Shown here: in pieces, positions 44,598 to 50,028 of the stretch | How the letters are laid out: each line of letters opens with the position of its first letter | Numbering within the stretch: the first letter of the stretch is position 1 | Assembly: GCA_029251405.1 (NCBI GenBank) | Contig: JAQXDK010000025.1 | Location: forward strand, 1-53,855 | Direction: 5' to 3' | From: Flavobacteriales bacterium | GTDB taxonomy: Bacteria > Bacteroidota > Bacteroidia > Flavobacteriales_D > Parvicellaceae | Length of the DNA stretch: 53,855 bases | Made by a program: the position numbers and the translations under genes | Notes under the pieces: model-generated | The model's input: the letters and a program-made list of their open reading frames with translations, nothing else | Told to the model about the DNA's origin: nothing | Database searches by the model: none

Positions 44598-44840
44598 TTA
44601 AGAATTAACTTTTAATGATTTATAAACCTTTAATATTTTTTTTCTGAATAAAAAAAACAATATAATGTATGGAATAATCATTAGAAATAATATTCCTGTA
44701 TTTAAACCATTTCCTGTGGTGAAATCTTCATTAGAACTATTTATTATTTGAGCTCTGCAAGTAGAACAACCCTGAGAAATTAAGTTCAAATGAAACATAA
44801 TAAATAAAAAAACTACTGCTATTTTATTTAATAATCTCAT
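44598..44840 (-). CDS. Small CxxC membrane protein of the cytochrome oxidase cluster
   Basis: An 80-residue product. The start at ATG 44840 overlaps the DUF420 stop as ATGA and gives a proper signal peptide; a longer frame to 44900 would add 20 residues inside the DUF420 gene and is unlikely. Cleavage after LISQ would leave a mature N-terminus GCSTCRAQ with two cysteines, followed by one membrane span (about 49-66) and a basic tail. I recall the CSTCRAQ-type protein beside oxidase genes in other flavobacteria, but it has no named function. A role in copper handling or oxidase assembly is inference. Confidence 0.72.
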   Translation of the reverse strand: MRLLNKIAVVFLFIMFHLNLISQGCSTCRAQIINSSNEDFTTGNGLNTGILFLMIIPYIILFFLFRKKILKVYKSLKVNS

Positions 44841-45385
44841 AGGTAATATGGTGAAATTAAAATGTAAACGACAACTCCTGTAACGGCAACATAAAGCCAT
44901 ACTGGATACACATACCTAGCAAGTTTTTTGTGCCTTCCGAACTCCGCAATTGAAGCTCTGTAAGCAGTAAACAAAATAAACGGTAAAGACAAGCCTGCTA
45001 GTATGATGTGAGATACAAGAATGAAGTAATAAATGGTTTTAATGGTTCCTTCTCCCATAAATGGCGTGCTTTCAGCTAGAAGGTGATGGGCTATGTATGA
45101 TAATAGAAACAAAACAGACAGAACGATTGAAAGATTCATTACTTTCTTGTGAAAAAGATATTTTTTTCCTTTGATAAAAATCAGACCTAAAACTAGTAAT
45201 ATTGAAACAATCCCGTTGATTATCGCGTTAATTTTCGCAAATATATGGGGGTCAAAACTAACTTCAATTTTTAAATTTAATTCATGTAAAAATACGACTG
45301 CTAGAAAGACTATAGCTGATACTGAGATAATGAAAATATTAGCTTTTCTATCGTTCTTAGAAATTGATGGAGCTGGTAAATTCAT
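44837..45385 (-). CDS. DUF420 membrane protein (cytochrome oxidase assembly, CtaM-like)
   Basis: A 182-residue protein with about five membrane segments and conserved His residues (FLHEL, IAHHLLAE, VSHIILAG) typical of DUF420. A member of this family in Staphylococcus (CtaM) is needed for heme-copper oxidase maturation. Position after Sco and subunit genes supports the same job. Its stop overlaps the small CxxC gene. Confidence 0.85.
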   Translation of the reverse strand: MNLPAPSISKNDRKANIFIISVSAIVFLAVVFLHELNLKIEVSFDPHIFAKINAIINGIVSILLVLGLIFIKGKKYLFHKKVMNLSIVLSVLFLLSYIAHHLLAESTPFMGEGTIKTIYYFILVSHIILAGLSLPFILFTAYRASIAEFGRHKKLARYVYPVWLYVAVTGVVVYILISPYYL

Positions 45386-45446: not shown

Positions 45447-46640
45447 TTATAGAAGTGACTTAATGTCTTCAACAATAACTGAAATATTGGAGGGGTTTGT
45501 ACCGTCATAATACCCTCTTATTCTTTGTTTTTGGTCGATTAGAATTAATTTTTCTGAATGTAGAAAACCGCCAGGGGCCAAAGCATCTTCTTGGTTAGGA
45601 ACTAAAAATCCATTTACTCCTAGATCGTAGATGGTGTTTTGATTTCCGGTTAATAAATTCCAGTTTTTAGAATTTAAATTATAGGTCCTAGCGTATTGAC
45701 TAAGTTGCTCTACTGAATCTCTTGTTGGATCTACTGTGAATGATAATAATTCAACATTTTCCAAGCATTCTTTTTGTAACGCATTTTGTATTTTTTTCAT
45801 ATTAACTGTCATTTTGGGACAAATGGTTGGACAATTAGTAAAAAAGAAGTCTACAAGATGAACTTTGCCTTTTAAATCTTCAGAACTTTTATTAATCCCA
45901 TTTTGATTTTCAAATGACCATGATGGTATACTATGATAAATAGTATCCTCGTCTAAATCAGCATTGAATTCTTTATTTCCATAAATAGGTAATGGATCTT
46001 TATGAGATATCGACGACTCTTCTTTAATTAAAAGACTGATTTCTTTAGTAATTCTTCTGATTTCTCCGAAATTATAAGAAAAATACTTTCCCCTGATTTT
46101 TTGGTTTTTATCTACAAGTAAAGTCATTAAATGAGCTTGTTTATCAAAACCATAAGCAGTATCTTTTTTAACCCAGGGATTACCCTTAGCAAAGTCATTG
46201 TCAAAAAATGGAATGTATTTAGTAGCTGTCATTATCCATTTATCACTGTAAATCTTATTGTAGTCTCTAAATTCTTTAATTCTATCGTTTAAATTCTCCA
46301 ACGTATCTATAAATGAGGTAACCACAATAACATCTTCGAATCCTTTATTACCAACTAACTCATTGTAAATTTTTATTTTAAACCATTCCAGCCGAAAAGG
46401 ACATTTTTTAAAATCTGTGGGGCAATCAGATGAAAGAAAATTGTAGAGCACTATTTTATCATTCCAATCACAAGAAGATATAGTATTTCCATTGTAATCA
46501 ATGATATTAAATGGGTTTTCCAGTTCGCCAAATGTAGGCTGGGAAATAAAAACAGGTTTACTAAAGGTTTTAAGAGTTATAATAACTAATGAGGAAAGAC
46601 CAAAAATAAGGCCTAAAACTAAAAAGCCTTTTTTCTTCAT
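45447..46640 (-). CDS. Tandem Sco-like copper chaperone fusion
   Basis: A 397-residue protein with an N-terminal membrane anchor (about 5-24) and two thioredoxin-fold domains. The C-terminal one (about 225-397) is a standard SCO1/SenC domain with C270-P-T-I-C274 and H361 (FLHSEKL), the Cu ligands that serve Cu(A) assembly. The N-terminal one (about 35-205) is a diverged copy: C73 and C80 (C-x6-C) and H170 (QAHLMTLLVDKNQKIRG) align with the C-terminal motif, including the shared LxxDxxQxIRGxY. The usual Sco protein is about half this length. The gene follows cytochrome oxidase subunit IV by nine bases. Confidence 0.88.
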   Translation of the reverse strand: MKKKGFLVLGLIFGLSSLVIITLKTFSKPVFISQPTFGELENPFNIIDYNGNTISSCDWNDKIVLYNFLSSDCPTDFKKCPFRLEWFKIKIYNELVGNKGFEDVIVVTSFIDTLENLNDRIKEFRDYNKIYSDKWIMTATKYIPFFDNDFAKGNPWVKKDTAYGFDKQAHLMTLLVDKNQKIRGKYFSYNFGEIRRITKEISLLIKEESSISHKDPLPIYGNKEFNADLDEDTIYHSIPSWSFENQNGINKSSEDLKGKVHLVDFFFTNCPTICPKMTVNMKKIQNALQKECLENVELLSFTVDPTRDSVEQLSQYARTYNLNSKNWNLLTGNQNTIYDLGVNGFLVPNQEDALAPGGFLHSEKLILIDQKQRIRGYYDGTNPSNISVIVEDIKSLL

Positions 46641-46649
46641 AAGATAGTA

Positions 46650-47054
46650 TTAAGGATTAATACTATTCGCCCCTTCAAAAACTTCATGCCAGTAGCTGGA
46701 TTCGGTTAGGCAAATAAATATTAAATAAAGAATGAAGAGAATATATGGAGCTAAGATGACCCACTTAAAACTTTTTCTTTCATCTCCTAAATGCATAAAG
46801 ATCAATACAATGTAAGCTGCTTTTACAACTGTAAGAACTAAAAATCCTATTTTCACATAAGGCCAAAGTGTATTATCTCCACCAGTAGCATCGTATTGCT
46901 TAATAAAAGCTCCTATAAGAACTTCAACAACTGTAATGAGAGTAAGAATTCCTGTTACCTTCCAAATTTTCTTTCTTATCTCTACTCCATGAGCTTCGTC
47001 ATGATTGGCAGCTACAGAATATTTATGATCTTGAATTAAATCGTCTCTTTCCAT
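46650..47054 (-). CDS. Cytochrome c oxidase subunit IV family protein
   Basis: A 134-residue protein with three membrane segments, matching the small subunit IV (CyoD/CtaF-like) of heme-copper oxidases: KIWKVTGILTLITVVEVLIG, then VVKAAYIVLIFMHLGDERK, then a last span. The FMHLGDE motif is typical. It lies between subunit III (11 bases upstream) and Sco. Confidence 0.9.
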   Translation of the reverse strand: MERDDLIQDHKYSVAANHDEAHGVEIRKKIWKVTGILTLITVVEVLIGAFIKQYDATGGDNTLWPYVKIGFLVLTVVKAAYIVLIFMHLGDERKSFKWVILAPYILFILYLIFICLTESSYWHEVFEGANSINP

Positions 47055-47902: not shown

Positions 47903-49144
47903 TTAATTAATATATTCTAAAAAAACATACAAGTAAAGCCATAAAAGGCCAACAAAATGCCAAAAAACACCAATCGCTTTTAATCCTGCTGTATTTTCAG
48001 AATTATAACGACCATTATTTGCTCTAAAAGCAACGACTATTATACCAGATAATGACAAGATCAAGTGTAAAAAATGTATTATAGTTAGTACCCAAACGAA
48101 ACTACTTGAAACATTAGAAGTTTGATAAAATTCAGCATATTGATTTGGATTTAATTCTTCTTTTACTCTTTCCCAATAATCATTTTCAATATGAATATTA
48201 ACACCCTGTTTCAACTGAAAATAACCTTCAAAATCATTTATTTCAACATCATCTAAGTAGACTGCTCCACCTGAAACAAGATATTCTTTACCTGATTGAA
48301 ATACTTTTTGATTAATTGTATTTCTCTCTTGTTCAGTTAGTTCTTTGGAAGGAAAGAACAACTTTTTCTTATCATATATCAAATCTTCTCCATTTAATGC
48401 GATAGAAAAATCTTCTCCATATCTTCCCTTAAGCATGAAAAAAGGTTGGTCGTTACACACTCCATAGGAAAATTTAAATAACTCATCTTTTTGTCCCTCA
48501 GAAATAAGATTGCCTTTTAAAGTGAGGCCATTTTTACTGTTTTCTAAAATAACTTCATTATTTACATCAAAGATACTGTAAGGACTTTTATACTCTTTTA
48601 AAAATAAATTAGAGCCTTCAAAACTTGTACCATATCCGCAAATTTGTCTTAGAAATAACTTTACATTATTCAGATCTTGTTCGCTTAATTTTTTTCCATC
48701 TTTCACGTAATCTTCTCCATTATATTCTATTGGGGTTCCACTATCATAAATTAAATAGGATTGACCATATTGTCCGTAAACAAAGGTTATAAAGGACTTA
48801 ACTGCATTACCTTGTTGGTAATATTTTTTCCATCCCTGAAATTGAAAAAAAGTAAAAAATAAGCAGAGTATAAATGAACCAACTAAATAATTAACTGTTT
48901 TCTTTTTATTGGATAATCTAGCATTTTTTAAAGCTAAATACATAAGTAAACTACTTATTAGAATAATTATAGTACTTATAATGAAAGCATTAGGCAGGTG
49001 GATATTTACCCAAAATTTATCCATTTTTCTTACTAATACTGCACTAGAAAGGCCAGCAAATAACATTATACTTGAAATAACACCTACGATAACTAAAGAA
49101 GTATATACTTTTTCCTTTTGTTGATTAGATTTAAATTGTTGCAT
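47903..49144 (-). CDS. Subunit III-like oxidase protein with large periplasmic insertion
   Basis: A 413-residue protein with five membrane spans (about 16-36, 53-72, 85-103, 349-373, 391-410). Those parts match the first of the two subunit III genes of flavobacterial oxidase clusters, normally about 190-200 residues (FQFQGW after span 3; WVLTIIHFLHLILSLSG and VFWHFVGLLWLYLYVFL at the end). About 240 residues between spans 3 and 4, where a short loop is usual, form a hydrophilic, probably periplasmic domain with two cysteines (C169, C230) and no recognised family. The reading frame is continuous and base composition is like its neighbours. Confidence 0.88.
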   Translation of the reverse strand: MQQFKSNQQKEKVYTSLVIVGVISSIMLFAGLSSAVLVRKMDKFWVNIHLPNAFIISTIIILISSLLMYLALKNARLSNKKKTVNYLVGSFILCLFFTFFQFQGWKKYYQQGNAVKSFITFVYGQYGQSYLIYDSGTPIEYNGEDYVKDGKKLSEQDLNNVKLFLRQICGYGTSFEGSNLFLKEYKSPYSIFDVNNEVILENSKNGLTLKGNLISEGQKDELFKFSYGVCNDQPFFMLKGRYGEDFSIALNGEDLIYDKKKLFFPSKELTEQERNTINQKVFQSGKEYLVSGGAVYLDDVEINDFEGYFQLKQGVNIHIENDYWERVKEELNPNQYAEFYQTSNVSSSFVWVLTIIHFLHLILSLSGIIVVAFRANNGRYNSENTAGLKAIGVFWHFVGLLWLYLYVFLEYIN

Positions 49145-49155
49145 TTTCTAAAAAA

Positions 49156-50028
49156 TTAAAGTTGATTAAAACAATAAATTGAGAATAGAATTGGTAAGTA
49201 AATAAAAGACATGAACATAAGCTGGGTAGCATATTTATTATTTAAAGTGAAATACAATTTAATTGCGGGATAATACATAATTAAACTGATGAAGACAGCA
49301 ACCAACATGGACCAAAATCCAGTCATTTCAGCTGCCCACGGAAGCATTGATACTGGAATTAAAAAGGCTGAGTATAACATAATTTGAAAAGCACTTTTTT
49401 TATCTCTATTTCCACTTGGTAACAATCTAAATCCAGCTTTCTTATAATCATCATCTAGTTTCCATGCTAATGTCCAGAAGTGAGGAAATTGCCAAAAAAA
49501 CTGAACAATAAATAATATTCCTGGTTCTAAACCAAAACTATTTGTTACTGCGACATATCCTAATAAAGGTGGAATACTTCCTGGAATAGCTCCAATAAAA
49601 ACTGCAAATGGGGTGATTTTTTTTAACGGGGTATATATTGTAGTATATGTTACCATAGCTAATAAACCTAAAATAAAAGAGTTAAAATTAATATCGGCAA
49701 GGAGATAAAGTCCTAAAACACCAGAAAGGGAACAAAATACAAGTGCTTCAAAATTGTTAAGTACTTTAGAAGGAAGAGGTCTTGAGGATGTTCTAGACAT
49801 TAAGCCATCGGTTTTAACCTCTATAATTTGGTTGAATCCGTTAGAAGCGCCTGTGATTAGAATACCACCAAGAATTAATTCAAAAAACACCAAAGAGCCA
49901 AGGTTTCCATCCGCTAGCAAATACCCAAAGAATGCACTCATAACAACGAGTGAAGACAACCTTAGCTTTAATAGAGAGACATAACCCTTTAACTTTGCAA
50001 CCAATGATAATTTAGATACTGTTTCCAA
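49156..50028 (-). CDS. ctaB: Protoheme IX farnesyltransferase (heme o synthase)
   Basis: A 290-residue UbiA-type prenyltransferase with about eight to nine spans. The Asp-rich allylic-diphosphate motif appears as NQIIEVKTDGLMSRTSSRPL, the Bacteroidota variant with Glu in place of the first Asp; a second motif is in KLDDDYKKAGFRLLP. It farnesylates heme b to heme o for the oxidase. First gene of the oxidase cluster, twelve bases before the long subunit III gene. Confidence 0.94.
   Translation of the reverse strand: METVSKLSLVAKLKGYVSLLKLRLSSLVVMSAFFGYLLADGNLGSLVFFELILGGILITGASNGFNQIIEVKTDGLMSRTSSRPLPSKVLNNFEALVFCSLSGVLGLYLLADINFNSFILGLLAMVTYTTIYTPLKKITPFAVFIGAIPGSIPPLLGYVAVTNSFGLEPGILFIVQFFWQFPHFWTLAWKLDDDYKKAGFRLLPSGNRDKKSAFQIMLYSAFLIPVSMLPWAAEMTGFWSMLVAVFISLIMYYPAIKLYFTLNNKYATQLMFMSFIYLPILFSIYCFNQL

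Follow-up and report, generated by a model that had tools for sequence, protein, structure and literature searches.

Oxidase cluster and subunit III genes

The window, a stretch of 53,855 nucleotides at the start of contig JAQXDK010000025.1 from a Flavobacteriales bacterium, contains a cluster of oxidase genes on the reverse strand (Table 1). The source genome spans 2.23 Mb in 53 contigs and has a single detectable COX1. The gene of main interest, COX3A, is uninterrupted with zero internal stops, and its neighbours encode UbiA/ctaB, a second subunit III (COX3B), COX4_pro, SCO1 and DUF420. COX3A is a member of the cytochrome c oxidase subunit III family, as evidenced by its profile match, its helices with the HxxH and WHxxxxxW motifs, and the surrounding oxidase genes. 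The PF00510 match lies in the C-terminal half and reaches 31.1 bits against a cut-off of 23.8 (32.9 bits in the genome search). The same half also matches COX3 chains of solved structures, none of which is from Bacteroidota. An AlphaFold model built on 16 aligned family members (mean pLDDT 80.7) has five membrane helices at residues 7-37, 52-76, 80-110, 347-376 and 386-411. H357, H360, W395, H396 and W402 are invariant in the protein alignment. The initial sequence-only reading of this locus as an intact, five-span oxidase subunit III gene is thus borne out.

The two subunit III proteins appear to differ in their first span. By eye, residue 25 of COX3A is a serine, while COX3B keeps an acidic residue, the D in LVSDALTF, which we take to correspond to the conserved glutamate of mitochondrial COX3. 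Because of this difference in sequence, COX3A and COX3B may have divided roles. Further along the cluster, the N-terminal half of the SCO1 protein, with 'LSSDCPTDFKKCPF', resembles by eye a second, degenerate thioredoxin-like domain.

Table 1. Features of the oxidase cluster, with positions in the window and residue numbers of the encoded protein.
Feature	Position	Strand	Size or residues	Basis and details
COX3A, aa3 oxidase subunit III with putative four-module periplasmic insert	47903..49144	-	413 aa	
COX3A membrane span 1	49034..49126	-	residues 7-37	AlphaFold secondary structure
COX3A whole periplasmic insert	48116..48808	-	residues 113-343	alignment with 195-aa insert-free orthologues; model
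COX3A module 1	48635..48793	-	residues ~118-170	HMM, hhalign, model; strands 130-134, 137-141, 146-148, helix 155-169
COX3A module 2	48449..48607	-	residues ~180-232	hhalign, model; strands 189-193, 201-203, 206-209, helix 216-231
COX3A module 3	48317..48442	-	residues ~235-276	HMM, hhalign, model; strands 246-250, 256-258, 261-264, helix 271-275
COX3A module 4 (putative)	48116..48316	-	residues ~277-343	alignment gap, model; strands 278-302, strands 306-326, helix 333-341
COX3A membrane spans 4 and 5	47912..48109	-	residues 346-411	alignment; H357, H360, WHxxxxxW motif
COX3B, second subunit III with unrelated 65-residue insert in the same loop	47066..47878	-	270 aa	
COX4_pro, small oxidase subunit IV	46650..47054	-		PF03626
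SCO1/SenC copper chaperone with long N-terminal extension	45447..46640	-	397 aa	PF02630 on residues 240-373
DUF420 membrane protein of the oxidase cluster	44837..45385	-		PF04238
UbiA-family protein, by position ctaB (haem o synthase)	49156..50028	-		PF01040

A modular insert in the periplasmic loop

Helices 3 and 4 of the COX3A model are separated by a folded region of mixed beta/alpha structure comprising about 230 residues. A large insert between these spans had been proposed from the sequence, and its limits can now be refined to approximately residues 113-343. The topology of COX3 places the span 3-4 loop on the periplasmic side. Together with the contrast between a basic span 2-3 loop (net charge +5) and an acidic insert (-12), this supports the periplasmic location suggested by the sequence-only reading. 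Of the two cysteines highlighted in that reading, both C169 and C230 are present, but they do not form a conserved pair: C169 is frequent across the GTDB family, whereas C230 is restricted to the same genus. A conserved disulfide is thus absent, and the interpretation of the insert as a disulfide-bonded domain was dropped.

The insert is very probably a modular array, in which a unit of about 55 residues is repeated about four times. Comparing the insert with itself by blastp returned no repeat, and it takes sensitive alignment or profiles to reveal the units. In the AlphaFold model, strand-strand-strand-helix units recur in the same order in each module, with pLDDT values mostly between 80 and 92. 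A module consists of three or four short strands and a helix, with the consensus GxYGxDYxIxxxGxxLxYxxGxxYxxxxxxL. An HMM trained exclusively on one-module proteins from other families matched COX3A at residues 122-146 (iE 9e-4) and 237-259 (iE 3e-7), and produced three matches each in several three-module proteins. None of 940 shuffled inserts reached iE<0.1. Pairwise hhalign comparisons among modules 1, 2 and 3 and the single module gave probabilities of 90-98%, against at most 7% for column-shuffled controls. Modules 1 and 3 aligned to the single-module proteins at 96% and 98%, respectively, and module 2 aligned to module 1 at 97% and to module 3 at 96%. Judged by these alignments, modules 1 to 3 are a tandem repeat, alike to each other and to the single-unit form. 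Module 4, whose homology to the other units the sequence does not confirm, reached 4-40% against modules 1-3 and has a similar order of strands and helix in the model. The fourth block (~275-333) corresponds to a gap in the alignment of three-module proteins.

The module appears to be confined to COX3A. A profile of the insert alone found the COX3A position and no second place in the source genome. Across 396 Bacteroidia genomes, the profile yielded 31 matches, each in a frame whose size fits COX3A; those whose location was checked lie at COX3A positions. The module was also looked for in COX3B and COX2 and was not found in either. The insert has no match near the cut-off in Pfam, no match on its own in NCBIfam and none among PDB sequences. 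The insert could be modelled alone, as had been suggested from the sequence, but with less confidence than within the full-length protein. Fold searches with Foldseek, run on PDB and viral models, and with VIA-align, the second structural comparison covering chiefly module 3 onward, gave nothing convincing (best Foldseek E 0.11, best structural Z 3.6). These negative results are compatible with membership of a known family or fold. No published description of such a COX3A insert was found in the literature searched.

Distribution and evolution of the module

The insert is shared by the GTDB family of the source genome. COX3A matches were recovered from 38 of its 39 genomes at 29-76% identity, and every unbroken same-family copy that was extracted contains the insert. 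One same-family genome (G014) has three modules rather than four. Named hits come from marine MAGs, which bear the labels Crocinitomicaceae, Cryomorphaceae, Flavobacteriales or MED-G20. Across the order and class, COX3A orthologues sort into length groups. Among 113 distinct orthologues from Bacteroidia, the span 3-4 loop measures 0-3, 23 (two cases), 46-59, 100-107, 156-170 or 223-232 residues, and the gaps between these ranges are empty. Module number is four in the source family, and three, two, one or none in related families. Most Bacteroidota orthologues are insert-free at 195-205 aa, in keeping with the sequence-only reading, which the same insert in most of them would have refuted. Beyond the class, open frames among the matches listed are ~205-240 aa long, with one exception at 301. 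The sequence-only reading of a single acquired domain of ~240 residues gives way to a graded series of zero to four modules, which is not peculiar to this genome but shared across the family and shorter in several others. The 23-residue inserts at the same site, below the length of one module, occur in two proteins of one family (L103, L108) and could be either part of a module or a short loop with no relation to it.

Copy number is inherited at the family level, since the copy-number classes require six changes on a phylogeny of the membrane core, close to the minimum of five and far from the 59.5 obtained with shuffled labels. The tree covers 113 proteins with the insert removed, and is a quick, unrooted tree with several weak deep branches. 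Three four-module family members, those of genus g9, lie on a long branch away from the rest. Pairwise dN/dS is 0.10 for the insert, compared with 0.12 and 0.10 for the two core parts, and purifying selection acts on the insert as strongly as on the core. An artefact or a fused frame was ruled out by this selection and by the presence of full-length COX3A in independent assemblies. The direction of gain versus loss was judged from the insert-free state outside of the class rather than from a rooted tree. We infer tandem duplication as the mechanism of module expansion. Quantised loop lengths, similarity among modules, repeated units in the model, the small number of copy-number changes and the restriction to COX3A together point to a module that expanded in place and in tandem.

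Possible functions of the module array

In the source genome, actABCDEF, the genes of the quinol-oxidising alternative complex III (ACIII), is followed directly by ctaC and ctaD, on a different contig from COX3A. CxxCH occurs six times in ActA (G000:C39:26116-27471), where the first motif belongs to a distinct single-haem cytochrome c domain at the N-terminus. Subunit II contains the CuA motif and no CxxCH. In Flavobacterium johnsoniae, aa3 receives its electrons from ACIII only (PMC8552683), and an additional cytochrome domain on ActA takes the place of that of subunit II (PMC5928083). Contacts within the F. johnsoniae ACIII-aa3 supercomplex run via the five-span subunit III, and the structural variability of subunit III has been noted as a possible adaptation to differing partners (PMC8361435). 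In R. marinus, a low-resolution fit puts subunit I/III next to ActC and underneath ActA (PMC5928083).

We suggest, with a probability of about one half for the explanation as a whole, that the span 3-4 loop of COX3A expanded by repeated duplication of its module and that the resulting array makes a contact within the supercomplex. The array would form an acidic periplasmic ledge touching the periplasmic arm of ACIII (ActA, ActB or ActE), the CuA domain of subunit II, or both. Such a contact would fix the ACIII-aa3 supercomplex, which could allow electrons to pass directly from the ActA cytochrome domain to CuA. A platform directed at ACIII or CuA is favoured because an array that projects from subunit III into the periplasm would be close to the reported interface. 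The platform role itself, with its inferred partner and benefit, falls just short of even odds. Docking is plausible, with ACIII more likely as the partner than a soluble donor. ActC was detected in 68 of the 69 genomes tested, whatever the module number, and the presence of ACIII nearly everywhere makes it uninformative as a discriminator of module number. As ACIII is equally found in module-free genomes, the modules would at most strengthen or tune docking rather than be essential. The insert-free orthologues of ~200 aa in other Bacteroidia likewise indicate that supercomplexes can form without modules. A further step seems rather unlikely, in which copy number determines how the supercomplex is arranged or how strongly it holds, evolution thereby tuned it through tandem duplication of a module, and COX3B acts likewise through an unrelated module.

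The modules might alternatively shield or stiffen the oxidase itself as a cap over COX1, COX2 or COX3B, or represent structural growth retained through the dependence of neighbouring subunits. This is the strongest competitor, even if we would bet against it, and it accommodates well that other subunits have clade-specific extra periplasmic segments, so that the whole face appears thickened. The span 3-4 insert of COX3B varies by clade (18-45, 61-83, 115-145 or 223 residues), is repeated internally in at least one family (halves 92.5%), and scores below 1% against the COX3A module by hhalign. The periplasmic part of COX2 contains a helical, coiled-coil-like insert of ~70 residues in most families of the order and lacks it in several others. 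A second short COX2 insert lies directly before the CuA motif (COX2 at G000:C39:34973-36274; relatives L177-L196). The COX2 insert is present or absent by clade, and its main loop correlates with module number at a Spearman coefficient of 0.59 (14 genomes, kinship uncorrected). COX2 length tracks module number only loosely and was set aside as evidence of contact with a co-varying partner. With clade-specific inserts in both COX3B and COX2, the periplasmic face of the oxidase was enlarged independently in several subunits. The independence of ACIII presence from module number also fits a role confined to the oxidase. However, clade-stable copy number and core-like constraint on the insert suggest a defined contact, without indicating which one.

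Sites that bind basic cytochromes c are often acidic, and the periplasmic insert with its net charge of -12 could be such a site for a soluble or lipid-anchored donor. We consider this improbable, as ActA brings its own extra cytochrome domain, the configuration by which aa3 is supplied directly in F. johnsoniae, and as three-module inserts have a median net charge of +1. The proximity of SCO1 and DUF420 within the cluster would suit an assembly role for the insert, as a platform for factors that deliver copper or haem, which appears more improbable still: the insert lacks a conserved cysteine pair, CuA is built in subunit II, and insert-free relatives have the same oxidase subunits. Capture of a whole foreign domain by recombination could account for an insert without Pfam or NCBIfam match, and yet is highly improbable given that forms with one, two or three modules occupy the same site, that modules resemble one another and that the searches found the module in no other protein.

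Subunit III is among the most conserved respiratory proteins, and its role is still disputed. A natural series of zero to four modules at one site provides a ready-made experiment on subunit III at the interface with a quinol-oxidising complex. The series occurs in bacteria abundant in the sea, as well as in families with finished genomes.

Comparison with known systems

COX3A shares the core, the histidine pair, the WHxxxxxW motif and the gene neighbourhood with the five-span subunit III of aa3/bo3 oxidases (PF00510; CyoC/CtaE type). Typical orthologues have 0-3 residues in the span 3-4 loop, whereas COX3A has ~230 extra residues arranged in modules. COX3B of the same cluster resembles COX3A in its five spans and in having a variable insert in the same loop, though the insert sequence is unrelated. 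With the F. johnsoniae ACIII-aa3 supercomplex (PDB 6BTM for ACIII; EMD-7447), the system shares the extra ActA cytochrome domain and a subunit II without cytochrome. The five-span subunit III of F. johnsoniae lies at the ACIII interface, and F. johnsoniae is the one species in which association with ACIII through subunit III is known (PMC8361435); in the source genome such an association is predicted. Subunit III likewise contacts complex III in the actinobacterial bcc-aa3 system with CtaE/CtaF (PMC8361435), which differs in having another complex III and no described modular periplasmic array. The subunit III family itself is known, and the new element is the modular variant of the COX3A periplasmic loop.
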